Made by a program: the position numbers and the translations under genes | Shown: positions 49,649 to 56,031 of the stretch, one piece after another | How positions within the stretch are numbered: the stretch's first letter is position 1 | How the letters are laid out: every line of letters starts with the position of its first letter | Notes under the pieces: generated by a model | The model's database searches: none | The model's input: the letters and a program-made list of their open reading frames with translations, nothing else | Told to the model about the DNA's origin: nothing | Assembly: GCF_003970675.1 (NCBI RefSeq) | Contig: NZ_CP034562.1 | Coordinates: forward strand, 2,294,001-2,358,000 | Length of the DNA stretch: 64,000 bases | DNA from: Flammeovirga pectinis | GTDB taxonomy: Bacteria; Bacteroidota; Bacteroidia; Cytophagales; Flammeovirgaceae | Direction: 5' to 3'

Positions 49649-50854
49649 ATGAACATCAGCCAACAACTTGATTCATTCAAAGAGAATGAGCAATGGCGTT
49701 CATTAAAAAATATTGACCGCCAACATCATGGAAAAATAAAGAAAGACGGTATTCTACTCGACAGTTTTATTTCTAATGATTACTTAGGAATAGCTTCTGA
49801 TCAAGACCGTTACTTTAGTTTTCTAACTACTTTACAAAATTCCAATCAATTTAATGGATTTGGAGCTGCATCATCTCGATTATTAGAGGGTAATGCTTCT
49901 GTTTTTGAACGTTTTGAGCAAAAAGTCGCTACATCATTTCAAAAAGAAGCATGTCTATTTATGAATAGCGGCTACCATGCTAATATTGGTGTTTTATCAA
50001 GTATTCCTCAAAAAGGGGATCTAATTTTATCAGATAAATTAAACCATGCCAGTATTGTAGATGGTCTTAAATTAAGTAATGCACATTTTGAACGTTACAA
50101 ACATTTAGATTACACTCATTTAGAGCGTCTACTTCAAAAACATAAAGATCATTTTAATAGTATTTTTATTGTTAGCGAGGCATTGTTTAGCATGGATGGT
50201 GATACTGCAAACCTAAAGGTATTATCACAACTAAAAGAAAAATATAATGCTCACCTTATTATTGATGAAGCACATAGTATTGGGACTTTTGGTAAAAATG
50301 GTTTAGGTATTTGTGAAGAGAGTGGTGTTCTAAACCAAATTGATATAATAGTTGCTCCTTGTGGGAAAGCACTTGGTGGTGTAGGTGCAATAGTTGTTTT
50401 GTCTCAAGAATGGAAAGACTTCTTGATTAATACTTCGAGATCATTTATTTATACCACTTCTTTACCTCCAATTAATGTAGAATGGTTAGCATATAATTGG
50501 TCGTATATACTAAATCAAAAAGTACTTAGAAATAGGTTAACACAACTCGTTACCTATTTCAAAAAAGAATGTCTTAAAAGAAATCTTCCTGTTTTATCTG
50601 ATACGTACATACAGCCTATTATTGTTGGAGATAATGAAACGGCAATTTCGTTGGCCAATTATTTAGAAAGTGAAGGTATTTATTGTGCACCAATTCGTAA
50701 TCCTACTGTTCCAAAAAACACAGCAAGATTACGATTATCTATCACTGTAAACCATACAGAAACATTAATAGATAAAGTACTTGATCTAATTTCAGACTAT
50801 CTACTTACTAAAAAAACTGAACATGAAAACACATTGGTTAAAGAAGGAAGGTAA
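49649..50854 (+). CDS. bioF: 8-amino-7-oxononanoate synthase
   Basis: About 401 residues, the PLP enzyme that condenses pimeloyl-ACP with alanine (KAPA synthase). SNDYLGIASD begins the catalytic region, and MNSGYHANIGVLSS and DEAHSIGTFGKNGLG are conserved. The PLP Lys lies in VAPCGKALGGVGA. The ATG at 49649 is used; a TTG two codons upstream is less likely. Its last 32 bases overlap bioG, starting the compact unit bioF-bioG-bioC-bioD-bioA. Confidence 0.96.
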   Translation: MNISQQLDSFKENEQWRSLKNIDRQHHGKIKKDGILLDSFISNDYLGIASDQDRYFSFLTTLQNSNQFNGFGAASSRLLEGNASVFERFEQKVATSFQKEACLFMNSGYHANIGVLSSIPQKGDLILSDKLNHASIVDGLKLSNAHFERYKHLDYTHLERLLQKHKDHFNSIFIVSEALFSMDGDTANLKVLSQLKEKYNAHLIIDEAHSIGTFGKNGLGICEESGVLNQIDIIVAPCGKALGGVGAIVVLSQEWKDFLINTSRSFIYTTSLPPINVEWLAYNWSYILNQKVLRNRLTQLVTYFKKECLKRNLPVLSDTYIQPIIVGDNETAISLANYLESEGIYCAPIRNPTVPKNTARLRLSITVNHTETLIDKVLDLISDYLLTKKTEHENTLVKEGR

Positions 50855-51491
50855 TGACACTGTTGTTATCTTTTTTGCAGGATGGGGACAAACACCCTCA
50901 TTTTTTTCCACTTTTGAAGCAAAAGAAAAAGATGTTTTAATGGTTTACCACTACTCAAACATTGCATTTGATAATGTGATAAATGAGATAGAAAATTATA
51001 AAAATAAAGTTATTGTAGCGTGGTCATTTGGTGTGCATGTTGCTGGATTATTTTCAGAGTTTATTCCTGTAAATCAGTTAATCTGCCTAAATGGGTCATT
51101 TACACCAATAGATGATAAAGAAGGTATTCCAAATGCTATTTATCAAGGTACTTATGACCAACTCACAGAAAATAGTTGGAAGAAGTTTGTGTTCAGAATT
51201 TGTGGAAATAAGGAATTATCAGATCAATTTCTACAGGTATCAGATAGAACCATCGAAGACCTCAAGGAAGAACTTTATTTTTTAGGACAATTACCAAAAG
51301 TAAACACTATTCCTTCTGTTGATATTGCTATAATAGGAAGCAAAGACAGAATTTTTCCTTCTAAAAATTTAGAAAATCATTGGACTAATCGGGTTGAACA
51401 TTTAATAGTTGATGCCGTTCCACATTTTGGTTTTTCAAAATATACAAACTGGGATTCTTTAATTAATTGTAAAGCTGAAGCAACATGGTAG
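50823..51491 (+). CDS. bioG: pimeloyl-ACP methyl ester esterase BioG
   Basis: A 222-residue alpha/beta hydrolase of the BioG (DUF452) family. It cleaves the methyl ester from pimeloyl-ACP, releasing the substrate for BioF. The sequence opens with FFAGWGQTPSFF (oxyanion region). The nucleophile Ser is in VAWSFGVHVAG, the acid in IGSKDRIFP, and the His in VPHFGF. It overlaps bioF by 32 bases and bioC by 7, so translation is coupled. It replaces BioH in this genus-type arrangement. Confidence 0.93.
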   Translation: MKTHWLKKEGNDTVVIFFAGWGQTPSFFSTFEAKEKDVLMVYHYSNIAFDNVINEIENYKNKVIVAWSFGVHVAGLFSEFIPVNQLICLNGSFTPIDDKEGIPNAIYQGTYDQLTENSWKKFVFRICGNKELSDQFLQVSDRTIEDLKEELYFLGQLPKVNTIPSVDIAIIGSKDRIFPSKNLENHWTNRVEHLIVDAVPHFGFSKYTNWDSLINCKAEATW

Positions 51492-52238: not shown

Positions 52239-52874
52239 ATGAACATATTTATAAGTGCAATAGGAACAGATAGTGGAAAAAGTGTTGTTTCTGCAATTTT
52301 TACAGAGGCTTTAAATGCTGATTATTGGAAACCAATACAAGCTGGATTTCCGACAGATACAGAAACGGTGCATCAGTTACTTCCTACACCCAAGGAGAAA
52401 TTAAAAGAAGCGTATTTACTAAAATATCCAATGTCGCCACATGCGTCTGCTAGAAAAGAAGGTATTCACGTGAAGCTCGATGCTATTCAATTACCTCAAC
52501 ATACTAAAGAAAATTTGGTTATTGAAGGAGCTGGAGGACTAATGGTTCCTTTAAATGATGAAGATTGTGTAATTGATATTGCAGAAAAACTAGACTTACC
52601 TCTTGTATTGGTAAGCAATACGTATTTAGGGAGCATCAACCATTCTTTATTGTCTATTAGAGAGATAAAGAGACGTGGTTTGAATTTACTCGGTATTGTT
52701 TTTAATGGAGAGAGAAATGAGGATACAGAAAGAATTATACTAAAACATGCTCAAGTTCCATGTTTATTTAAAGTACCTCAATTAGAAGAAGTTTCTCCTG
52801 CAGTAATAACAAATTTAGCCAATCAATTAAATCAAACACTTAGTCAACATTTAAATGTATCAATCCATGAATAA
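52239..52874 (+). CDS. bioD: dethiobiotin synthetase
   Basis: A 211-residue P-loop carboxylase-like ligase that closes the ureido ring using CO2 and ATP. The P-loop is the short form GTDSGKSVVSA, two residues shorter than the textbook GTDTxxGKT but usual for Bacteroidota BioD. YWKPIQAGFPTDTE binds substrate, and VIEGAGGLMVPLNDED is the second conserved block. It starts one base after bioC and overlaps bioA. Confidence 0.95.
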   Translation: MNIFISAIGTDSGKSVVSAIFTEALNADYWKPIQAGFPTDTETVHQLLPTPKEKLKEAYLLKYPMSPHASARKEGIHVKLDAIQLPQHTKENLVIEGAGGLMVPLNDEDCVIDIAEKLDLPLVLVSNTYLGSINHSLLSIREIKRRGLNLLGIVFNGERNEDTERIILKHAQVPCLFKVPQLEEVSPAVITNLANQLNQTLSQHLNVSIHE

Positions 52875-54192
52875 CCTAACATTAGCAGAACGCGACAAAC
52901 AATATATTTGGCATCCTTTCACTCCTCAAACTTTAGCACCTCCACCCCTGCCTGTAAAAAGTGCTAAAGGGTCTAAAATCATTTTAGAAGATGGCACAGA
53001 AATTATTGATGCTATTTCTTCTTGGTGGGTAAACATTCATGGACATGGTAACGAAGAACTAGCAGAAACTATAAAACAACAAGTTCTTAATCTAGATCAT
53101 ATTATTTTTGCAGGTTTTACACATGAGCCTGCTGTTCAATTGGCAGAAAAATTGATGCCACTCTTACCTGGGGAATTCTCTAAAGTATTCTTTTCTGATA
53201 ATGGAAGTACATCCACTGAAATAGCTATAAAAATGGTTATTCAGTATTTCTATAATATTGGAGAAACAAAAAGGAAAAAAGTAATTGCCATAAAAGGCTC
53301 TTATCATGGAGATACATTTGGTGCTTTATCGATGGCTGATAGAAACCCCTTCTCTGCTCCTTTTGATGATTATCTTTTTGATGTTGACTTTATCCCATTT
53401 CCTACAGAAGAAAACTGGGAAGAAGTGAAAACACAAATGCAATCACTTTGTGAAACAGAAGAAGTATGCGGGTTCATTTTCGAACCACTTGTACAAGGAG
53501 CATCAGGAATGCGTATGTACAAAAGTGAATGGTTGGATGATTTAATTGGAATTGCACAGAAATACGGAACACTCTGTATTGCTGATGAAGTAATGACAGG
53601 TTTTTATAGAACAGGAAAACTCTTTGCAACAAATCACCTTACTAAAAATTCTCCAGATATTATCTGTATGTCTAAAGCATTAACTGCTGGATTAATGCCG
53701 TTAAGCTTAACCATCTGTACCGAAAAAATATACAGTGCTTATTTAGATGATGACAGGTTAAAAACATTCTTTCATGGACACTCTTTTACTGGAAACCCAA
53801 TTGCTTGTGCTTTAGCCGTAAAAAGTCTAGAAATGCTACTTAGTAATGAAAGACAAGGTCAGATTACTAATATTATAAATAGACATACTGAGTTCGGTGA
53901 AAAGGTTAAAAAGACCAAGTTTTGCAAATCGGTGAGACAACAAGGTACAATCCTAGCAATTGAATATGATACAGAAAAAGAAACCTCTTATTTTAATTCT
54001 ATAAGAGATGAACTATATGATATATTCTTAAAAAGAAATTTATTATTACGTCCCTTAGGTAATACAGTTTATATAAATACTACTTATGTGATTTCAAATA
54101 GTGAGTTAGATGAAATTTATGACGGGCTTTTTGATGTATTTGAAATTGGTATAGTAACATACAAAACAAATAATTTAGTCTCAACTATTTAA
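52867..54192 (+). CDS. bioA: adenosylmethionine-8-amino-7-oxononanoate aminotransferase
   Basis: About 441 residues, the class III PLP aminotransferase that turns KAPA into DAPA with SAM as amino donor. The N-terminal KQYIWHPFTP is the BioA hallmark, ISSWWVNIHGHGNEEL and SDNGSTSTEIAIKM contact substrate and PLP, and the PLP Lys lies in DIICMSKALTAGLMPL. It overlaps bioD by 8 bases if the ATG at 52867 is used (52855 is also possible). It is the last gene of the bio unit; the first hairpin of the repeat region may stop it. Confidence 0.96.
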   Translation: MNNLTLAERDKQYIWHPFTPQTLAPPPLPVKSAKGSKIILEDGTEIIDAISSWWVNIHGHGNEELAETIKQQVLNLDHIIFAGFTHEPAVQLAEKLMPLLPGEFSKVFFSDNGSTSTEIAIKMVIQYFYNIGETKRKKVIAIKGSYHGDTFGALSMADRNPFSAPFDDYLFDVDFIPFPTEENWEEVKTQMQSLCETEEVCGFIFEPLVQGASGMRMYKSEWLDDLIGIAQKYGTLCIADEVMTGFYRTGKLFATNHLTKNSPDIICMSKALTAGLMPLSLTICTEKIYSAYLDDDRLKTFFHGHSFTGNPIACALAVKSLEMLLSNERQGQITNIINRHTEFGEKVKKTKFCKSVRQQGTILAIEYDTEKETSYFNSIRDELYDIFLKRNLLLRPLGNTVYINTTYVISNSELDEIYDGLFDVFEIGIVTYKTNNLVSTI

Positions 54193-54276
54193 ATGTGTAT
54201 TCTATACTTTGTTATTTTAATAATTTCATACTTTTAGCCATATAAGCAGGATTAATTATATTATTTCTTGTATTAG

Positions 54277-54377
54277 TTAAATTTTTGTCATTAATTAGTA
54301 AACGAAAACAGCAATAAGAAATAGTTTTTGGGTTATTAAAGGAATTAAAAAGTCTCTCACTCTGTGAGGGACTTTTT
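54277..54377 (+). ncRNA. candidate small RNA, copy 1
   Basis: A 101-base unit with 98 identities to copy 2 located 201 bases downstream. It ends in a strong terminator: AGTC-T-CTCAC / GTGAG-G-GACT with loop TCT, then a T-run. No ATG occurs in it, so a peptide is unlikely. Conservation begins at TTAAATTTTTG and runs through the hairpin. TTTCTTG just upstream is shared with copy 2, but a textbook Bacteroidota promoter is not evident. It may also act as the bioA terminator. Strand is chosen from the T-run. Confidence 0.5.
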
Positions 54378-54477
54378 TTATTTTCACCAACTACAAAAGA
54401 ATCAAATCCTTTAACTTTTATAGTTTAATGTCAAAAAATACTAAAAATGTAATAAATACATTTTTTTCTTGCAATTA

Positions 54478-54578
54478 TTAAATTTTTGTCATTAATTAGT
54501 AAACGAAAACAACAATAAGAAATAGTTTTTGGGTTATTAAAGGAATTAAAAAGTCTCTCACCTTGTGAGGGACTTTTT
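54478..54578 (+). ncRNA. candidate small RNA, copy 2
   Basis: Second 101-base unit, differing from copy 1 at three bases: one G/A in the body, and TC to CT in the terminator loop side. The stem AGTC-T-CTCAC / GTGAG-G-GACT is intact and only the loop changes (CTT). That is the pattern expected if the hairpin is under selection. It is followed by TTTTT. A 100-base AT-rich spacer separates it from copy 1. Confidence 0.5.
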
Positions 54579-54828
54579 ACGTTAAATACAATTCTAAAGC
54601 TATAATAGTCTACATATTATTTTATTAATAAAGTCGCCATTACCTGTTTATTCAATTACTATTATTAAATTTGACTCATACTATTTGTGATTGTATTGAA
54701 TCAAGTACTTATATTTTTTAATTTAGTTCTACAATATTATATCAGAAAGTCTTGTATATTGTAGTAAGTACTTACAGCAATTGTTATCTAGTCTTAGCAA
54801 TTTATAATTTTACTCTGTCAAAAAAATA

Positions 54829-56031
54829 ATGAAATCCCATTTCATAAAAACCTTTATTGTAACACTTCTGTGTTGTATTCAATTTAATGTTCTTGGTCAA
54901 GATGTAGCTTCGTCAGACTCAACAATAGTAGAAAGTTTAATTGATGCTGATACTACAAAATCTGGAAAACCAAGAAAAAATTTACGCTTTAGCATACTAG
55001 GTGGCCCTGGATATACTCCAGATTATGGCTTCTTAATTGGTATGAGTATGTTGTTTACATTTAGAATGGATAAAGATGATAAAGAACTTAAACGATCTGT
55101 TGTACCAATTGCAGGTGCTTGGTTAAGTTCTGGTGGTTTTAACTTAATTGCTAAACCACAACTATTCTTTAATCATGATAGAATTAGATACTTTGGTCAA
55201 GTTCAATACAGAAATAATTATGATAATTATTATGGTGTTGGGTTCCTTAATAACCAGAGTATGGAAAGAAGTGATTCCACAACACAGTATTTTCAGAATT
55301 CTATTGCCATTTTTGGTTCTGTACTTTTTCGTTTAAAAGACTCCGACTTTTTTGTAGGTCCCTCTTTCGATTACACAAACAGAAATTTATCTGAAATCTC
55401 CGCTGGAGTAGCTTCAGACCCAACATATATTGAACAAGGTGGTACTGATGCAGGAATGAATATACAGAATATAGGTATAGGCTTTGAAATTTCTTATGAT
55501 ACTAGAGATATTCCAGCAAATGCATGGAGAGGAATTTATTTTGACATTACTGCCAGGTATTATGATCAATGGATGGGTAGTGATACAAAGTGGGGATTTT
55601 TATCTGCTGAGTATAGACAATATAAACTTCTACCCTTTTTAGGTAAAAGAAAAGTACTCGCATGGACTGGTAAAATTAGATCTTCTTATGGCGATGTACC
55701 TTTTACAGATATGTCATTAATTGGTTCCCCATTCGATTTAAGGGGATATTACTTAGGACAATACAGAGATAAAACATCTGCATTTGCAATGGCTGAATTT
55801 AGATCAATGTTTAATTCAAAATCAAAATTGATTTCTAAATTAGGTTATGCAGTTTGGGGTGGTGCAGGTATGGTAGGACCAGATTTATTCCATCCAGGAG
55901 GACTGTTACCAAACTTTGGAGCAGGTTTACGTGTACAAGTACAACCAAGAATGAACTTTAGAATTGATTTAGGACGTGATCCTTTATCAAAACAAAACCT
56001 AGTCTATTTTAATATGACAGAAGCTTTCTAA
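54829..56031 (+). CDS. Omp85-type barrel-only outer-membrane protein
   Basis: A 400-residue exported barrel with a signal peptide ending at VLG-QDVAS. A short linker follows, and then the barrel: RFSILGGPGYTPDYGFLIG opens it. The Omp85 loop is visible as SLIGSPFDLRGYYLGQYRD. GVGF- and FGAGLRVQVQPRMNF-type strands and a terminal NMTEAF end it. No POTRA domains. It has the same architecture as 44210-45289, but the proteins are not close copies. Function is unknown; Bacteroidota use many such barrels beside BamA. Confidence 0.85.
   Translation: MKSHFIKTFIVTLLCCIQFNVLGQDVASSDSTIVESLIDADTTKSGKPRKNLRFSILGGPGYTPDYGFLIGMSMLFTFRMDKDDKELKRSVVPIAGAWLSSGGFNLIAKPQLFFNHDRIRYFGQVQYRNNYDNYYGVGFLNNQSMERSDSTTQYFQNSIAIFGSVLFRLKDSDFFVGPSFDYTNRNLSEISAGVASDPTYIEQGGTDAGMNIQNIGIGFEISYDTRDIPANAWRGIYFDITARYYDQWMGSDTKWGFLSAEYRQYKLLPFLGKRKVLAWTGKIRSSYGDVPFTDMSLIGSPFDLRGYYLGQYRDKTSAFAMAEFRSMFNSKSKLISKLGYAVWGGAGMVGPDLFHPGGLLPNFGAGLRVQVQPRMNFRIDLGRDPLSKQNLVYFNMTEAF

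Follow-up and report, generated by a model that had tools for sequence, protein, structure and literature searches.

Multicopy families of small regulatory RNAs (sRNAs) are already known. The LhrC genes of Listeria lie partly in tandem, and the Sigma-E-dependent sRNAs MicA and RybB of enterobacteria are single-copy and Hfq-dependent. LhrC comprises near-identical sRNA genes in multiple copies and is linked to envelope stress (PMC4132741). In the phylum that concerns us, the FopS family of Bacteroides thetaiotaomicron comprises 14 sRNAs, which are bound by an RRM protein and pair with the starts of SusC mRNAs, thereby repressing them (PMC11697453). Hfq-free sRNA regulation in Bacteroidota has been studied mainly in gut Bacteroides (PMC11697453, PMC7366714), and a marine genus would give an independent test of whether combining multicopy sRNAs with an RRM protein is a solution of general use in the phylum.

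The family of predicted sRNA genes that we describe here, from the genus Flammeovirga, resembles FopS/GibS in having about a dozen paralogous copies per genome within the same phylum (PMC11697453, PMC7366714). In both, the RNAs are short and rich in A and U, their 5' part is conserved and single-stranded, and they end in an intrinsic terminator (features that are predicted in Flammeovirga); both have housekeeping-type promoters for most copies, and in both cases an RRM_1 protein is present and Hfq is absent. In Flammeovirga, promoters and terminators belonging to the individual copies are predicted from the sequence. The likeness is one of description, and no Bacteroides sRNA family in Rfam reached its cut-off. 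Unlike FopS, the Flammeovirga family forms long tandem arrays beside an ECF sigma-factor gene and has a second, ECF-like promoter class. LhrC likewise comprises several near-identical sRNA genes, but it differs in phylum and sequence and is under two-component control without a link to a sigma gene. MicA and RybB offer a parallel in that an ECF sigma factor and sRNAs form one stress circuit, sigma control being putative in Flammeovirga. Rfp18 of Flavobacterium is also an intergenic regulatory RNA of the same phylum; it has several stem-loops, unlike the present family, and the accessible part of its report, on whose description the comparison is based, describes no multicopy family (PMC9723704). 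We did not find the Flammeovirga family in the literature on Flammeovirga or Cytophagales sRNAs or on Bacteroidetes ECF-sigma sRNAs, a search that took in few subscription papers. The family, which is set apart from known multicopy families by its sigma-adjacent arrays and two promoter classes, is apparently undescribed.

We analyzed a stretch of 64,000 nucleotides of the Flammeovirga pectinis genome (hereafter the window), in which a sequence-only reading had pointed to two tandem 101-base units, lying between bioA and an outer-membrane gene, as duplicated sRNA genes whose terminators are preserved. Both units are confirmed (54277-54377 and 54478-54578, 201 bases from start to start). As had been claimed, they differ at exactly 3 of 101 positions and contain no ATG on the + strand. 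Each closes with a hairpin followed by a T-run, which in the second unit is short (TTTTTA). One difference falls in the core described below (54311, G/A) and the other two in the three-base terminator loop (54361, T/C; 54362, C/T). Profile matches also bear out the position between the two genes. The features of the locus are as follows.

52855..54192, + strand: bioA, upstream neighbour (TIGR00508, 510 bits against a cut-off of 405)
54268..54298, + strand: putative promoter-like element of copy 1, TTG (54268-54270), 20 nt, TTAATTAG (54291-54298)
54303..54344, + strand: core and flanks of copy 1, CGAAAACAGCAATAAGAAATAGTTTTTGGGTTATTAAAGGAA, with the conserved 32-mer inside (alignment of 28 copies)
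54347..54379, + strand: intrinsic terminator of copy 1, stem 54347-54377 and T-run (terminator scan, covariation)
54469..54499, + strand: putative promoter-like element of copy 2, TTG (54469-54471), 20 nt, TTAATTAG (54492-54499)
54504..54545, + strand: core and flanks of copy 2, one base different from copy 1
54548..54579, + strand: terminator of copy 2, stem 54548-54578 and short T-run (hairpin by folding and covariation)
54829..56031, + strand: Omp85-superfamily outer-membrane gene, downstream neighbour (Pfam, NCBIfam)

The downstream gene lies just over the Pfam cut-off for Omp85 (25.7 against 24) and below that of NCBIfam (63 against 200). The repeated block around the units extends to 117 nt with 93% identity. 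Both 102-nt RNAs fold better than their dinucleotide shuffles (z-scores of -3.86 and -4.02), with 1 and 0 of 200 shuffles, respectively, folding as well. The terminator scan on the + strand listed only copy 1, so that the hairpin of copy 2 comes from folding and covariation. Each unit is a predicted sRNA gene with an RNA of about 75 nt. Elsewhere in the window, the biotin gene cluster contains a 222-aa gene between bioF and bioC (50823-51491), which we take to be a candidate for the pimeloyl-ester esterase of the pathway.

The window pair is not isolated, since ten more full-core copies occur elsewhere in the same genome (G000), giving 12 in all. These copies and a shorter relative are located at the following sites, C1 and C2 denoting contigs.

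Site A, C1:1256178, - strand: one full-core copy
Site B, 54277-54377 and 54478-54578 of the window, + strand: the window pair
Site C, C1:3274672, - strand: one full-core copy
Site D, C1:2133282-2134159, + strand: tandem array of five full-core units, between a DUF7935 gene and an ECF-type sigma-factor gene
Site E, C1:1899658, + strand: one full-core copy
Site F, C2:430621, - strand: one full-core copy
Site G, C1:1464462, - strand: one full-core copy
Site H, C1:905160 (C1:905160-905226), + strand: shorter relative directly after a tRNA-Gly(GCC) gene

The relative at site H, as read in this genome, consists of AGTAGCAATGAGAAATAG and the terminator, without UUUUUGGGUU. Model matches of its length (67 nt) occur in all nine genomes of the genus, of which the G000 copy alone was read. 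A tRNA-Gly cluster with similar tails was observed in G010, a genome of another genus. Copy F lies near a further ECF sigma gene, whose type differs (TIGR02999, 192 bits against a cut-off of 126), and on its other side is upstream of a family 9 glycoside hydrolase gene.

Searches with several methods placed the family within a narrow taxonomic range. The core 19-mer, with up to 2 mismatches allowed, gave 9 perfect sites and one site with 2 mismatches in the window genome (reversed control, 0). When the unit served as a BLAST query, a third copy turned up in the window genome, and 14 of 58 relatives matched: all nine Flammeovirga genomes, a genome of one other genus (E 4.6e-10), and a further four with short matches (E 1e-4 or weaker). 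We also built a search model, R1, from alignment A1 of 28 copies and a broader model, R2, from alignment A2. Within the bacterial family, 11 of 18 genomes and 3 of 8 genera gave model matches, and each Flammeovirga genome gave 10 to 15 at E 0.01; one of the 14 in the window genome (C2:1061250) was without the core and was taken as chance. All nine Flammeovirga genomes have a bioA-side copy (1 to 3 in tandem), a copy beside a tRNA-pseudouridine-synthase gene and a separate array. Among named species genomes, a family pattern of the type found at sites A, B and C, which would miss array-type units, matched 22 stretches, all in Flammeovirga.

Outside the bacterial family, R1 matched 15 of 291 genomes of the order, 4 of them beyond the family. 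R2 matched 47 of 390 order genomes at E 0.01, of which 36 were outside the family (best 46 bits), and the core was absent in the 19 of these 36 that were read. A third model, R3, matched 32 of 395 genomes of the class including the window genome; its scores were 64.8 to 77.2 bits for the 11 own copies listed and at best 41.8 bits elsewhere, and the core was absent in the 9 read of the 31 other genomes. The large-scale searches used stricter filters, with which weak matches are lost. In the order and class samples, phages and plasmids, nothing convincing was found outside the bacterial family among the part of the weak matches that was read. Three of the loci read (L081, L133 and L314) hold loosely similar stretches; in L081, from another family of the order, positions 1500-1606 contain GCAACAATAAGAA ... 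GTTTTTAGGTTA before a terminator, which may be a remote relative or chance. Two exact 19-mer matches in IMG/VR had no terminator behind them and were judged to be chance. Rfam 15 gave no match over the curated cut-off in the window and only a tRNA in five further loci; BTnc231 (19 of 80 bits) and BTnc049 (29 of 82 bits) remained below threshold.

The core, AAUAG(UUAG)UUUUUGGGU, barely changes across the family. Its 32-mer AGCAATAAGAAATAGTTTTTGGGTTATTAAAG is exact in 25 of the 28 site-A/B-type copies, which include one from G010, and carries one substitution in the other three. In array-type units, 24 consecutive core columns are invariant among 29 units chosen out of 55 recognised, and at least one unit left out of the 29 has the changed core TTTTTAGGT. 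The two types differ by the TTAG insertion. The core is probably mainly single-stranded. In a diverse set of copies, pairing is predicted for the terminator and nowhere else; for the site-A/B copies alone, RNAalifold also gave a 9-pair hairpin inside the core with no pair changed on both sides, and single copies fold the 5' part in differing ways.

The terminators show a different kind of conservation. Of 338 terminator cells, 99.7% are paired, 11 of 13 pairs show change on both sides, and the number of double-change cells is 71, compared with 23.9 in shuffles. None of 500 shuffles was as high on any of five covariation measures; the kinship of the copies weakens this control, and a control with slid partners likewise did not reach the observed covariation. 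Covariation is likewise seen in the array terminators (9 of 13 pairs). In our reading, the terminator stem is kept only for its pairing.

The arrays of the nine genomes contain 3, 5, 5, 5, 6, 6, 7, 7 and 9 units by the core pattern, the count in G003 being a minimum, as the contig breaks off at that point. The spacing is 190 to 266 bases in 39 of 42 cases (eight arrays). The array comes after a DUF7935 gene in all nine genomes and directly before a gene for an ECF-type sigma factor in all eight loci where the contig reaches that far, and one degenerate unit adjoins the sigma gene in L144. Beyond the sigma gene, each of the eight loci that extend so far has a gene that we take to be GAPDH-like. 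The array-adjacent sigma factor exceeds the general ECF cut-off (TIGR02937, 61 bits against 43) and is below that of SigX4/SigJ (168 of 323 bits; 207 aa against a 281-position model), and it does not correspond to an ECF41 sigma factor with a C-terminal extension.

The copies fall into two classes by their upstream elements. The motif A(A/C)C-N16/17-CGTT precedes 47 of 52 array-type units (the arrays of eight genomes and copies F and G), compared with a mean of 0.8 and a maximum of 3 in 100 shuffles. Array units also conserve a TTCAC-like box upstream of the motif and a TATAA-like box downstream of it. Among the 5 units lacking the motif are those that open three of the arrays; two of these show TATATTTG and the third TATATTT. 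The motif was found in none of the 27 site-A/B copies (0/9 at site A, 0/18 at site B). Instead, site A has TTGG-N18/21-TATATTTA in 9 of 9 copies, and site B, at a position that is conserved among its copies, a weaker, loosely defined TTG-spacer element in 17 of 18, a count that has no shuffle control. We infer that these elements are like the housekeeping promoter of the phylum. The array motif, by its layout of a -35 box, N16 and a CGT box at -10, is a putative ECF-type promoter; a CGT box at -10 has been described as an ECF-type promoter in Flavobacterium (PMC9723704). The ECF41 promoter is TGTCACA-N16-CGTC (PMC3426412), and the array motif, with A(A/C)C and CGTT, departs from that consensus, its -35 part being different. 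In the five loci read, the upstream region of the sigma gene had no ECF-like motif outside the array units. A simple feedback loop of the sigma factor is therefore disfavoured, given that the motif upstream of its gene occurs at array units alone and that its -35 part is not ECF41-like. The family offers a natural set of promoter variants for one RNA.

Taken together, the covarying terminators, the near-invariant core, the promoter-like upstream elements and the conserved synteny give good support to the earlier view that the units are duplicated sRNA genes with preserved terminators, although the transcript itself stays predicted. With a probability of roughly 0.6, we consider both units to be genes for short intergenic regulatory RNAs of a multicopy family, with a trans-acting core that pairs with mRNAs, is bound by an RRM protein, or both. 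Each gene would be equipped with a promoter and an intrinsic terminator of its own. The working part would be the near-invariant, A/U-rich core, which would act in trans, either by pairing with the start regions of several mRNAs, by being bound by an RRM-type protein, or by both. Its siblings in the array, with the same core, would be read from a different, ECF-type promoter before the ECF sigma-factor gene, which could make one core available at a steady level and, in addition, in response to stress. Transcription, action in trans, targets, the protein partner and control by the neighbouring sigma factor are what we infer here. A more tentative extension, possible in our view, is a riboregulon with one core and two promoter classes, in which a few steadily read genes, including the window pair, would be joined by an ECF-sigma-linked cassette of 3 to 9 near-interchangeable sRNA genes; under stress more of the shared RNA would be made, and the RRM protein through which it acts would stand in for Hfq.

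Action of the core in trans is proposed on the basis of the precedent of FopS, the presence of one RRM_1 (Rbp-type) protein, which is over the NCBIfam cut-off for an RNA-binding regulator model, and a search for Hfq that found none, its control search matching in 5 of 14 genomes. With respect to targets, the suggestion that the neighbouring outer-membrane gene is one did not hold: in eight genomes, 54, 91, 47, 51, 53, 20, 44 and 16 of 200 shuffled cores paired with its start region as well or better. For the bioA start, the figure was 95 of 200 shuffles. We also computed duplex energies for 653 genes from 1.2 Mb and the window with the site-B and array cores, using 40 shuffles each; the comparison with inner regions of all genes is based on fractions, not means. 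Pairing was somewhat stronger for both cores than for their shuffles. The window genome has 40 whole SusC matches over the cut-off and one in two pieces, and 21 of 30 fetched loci entered the test (9 were without a start found). At SusC starts, the site-B core scored -13.4 against -12.4 in shuffles (3 of 40 as low), and the array core -14.8 against -13.2 (0 of 40 as low). The same excess was present inside genes for both cores, so that it is not specific to starts.

It is also conceivable, if rather doubtful, that the RNAs bind and titrate a protein as a sponge, the core being the protein site and the copy number setting the dose. In many copies the core is fixed from end to end, the genome encodes an RRM protein, and perfect complements of the core outside the family are rare: its antisense 13-mer had 107 sites in nine genomes (14 in the reversed control), and in the window genome 12 of 13 were the family itself, the sites of the other genomes not being individually classified. 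No target was thus found by perfect complementarity. However, protein binding is putative in Flammeovirga, and FopS RNAs both pair with mRNAs and bind the RRM protein (PMC11697453), so that titration and mRNA pairing are not mutually exclusive. The same core could instead encode a short leader peptide, an explanation that we regard as highly improbable. An open frame, ..IRNSFWVIK.., runs through the core, and where some copies read ACG, others read ATG; against this, the window units have no ATG, third codon positions are no more variable than first and second ones, and the TTAG insertion between the family types shifts the frame.

A role of the units in cis, as attenuators or leaders of the Omp85 gene, is very unlikely, if a little less so than a leader peptide. 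Each unit ends in a terminator, and a copy lies upstream of the Omp85 gene on the same strand in all 8 genomes where that gene was read. However, 250 bases separate the end of the second unit from the Omp85 start, array units follow one another without an intervening gene, and in G001 and G005 the bioA-side copy is followed by a gene on the opposite strand. Site A speaks in the same direction: its two flanking genes are the same in 9 of 9 genomes, and the gene downstream of it, identified by Pfam as a tRNA pseudouridine synthase gene and presumably truA, always lies on the opposite strand. The several copies per genome, some in tandem, could also suggest an intergenic repeat or mobile element, to which we give hardly any credence. 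Occurrence of the unit at many unrelated positions would have spoken against sRNA genes, and copies do occur at other loci, but these loci are few and are common to nine species. Only the core is fixed, and the terminators change by compensation. No phage matched, and plasmids gave three marginal matches at E 0.07. In the closest genome, G006, each copy of the window pair has its match in the copy of the same number, which runs counter to mobility and indicates that the pair is older than the split from G006. Since the loci are few and fixed across the genus and the copies have upstream elements and terminators of their own, we regard them as a gene family and not as a repeat element.

The predicted regulatory-RNA genes at site B have a history that can be followed across the genus. 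A copy follows bioA in 9 of 9 genomes, G005 having been read on this side alone and further fragments standing at contig ends. In G001, G003 and G004, the bioA side and the Omp85 side are now apart, each with its own copy. In G010, two model matches, one of which was read, lie about 160 bases apart (C9:394430-394674). Given these two close matches in another genus, the tandem placement may predate Flammeovirga.
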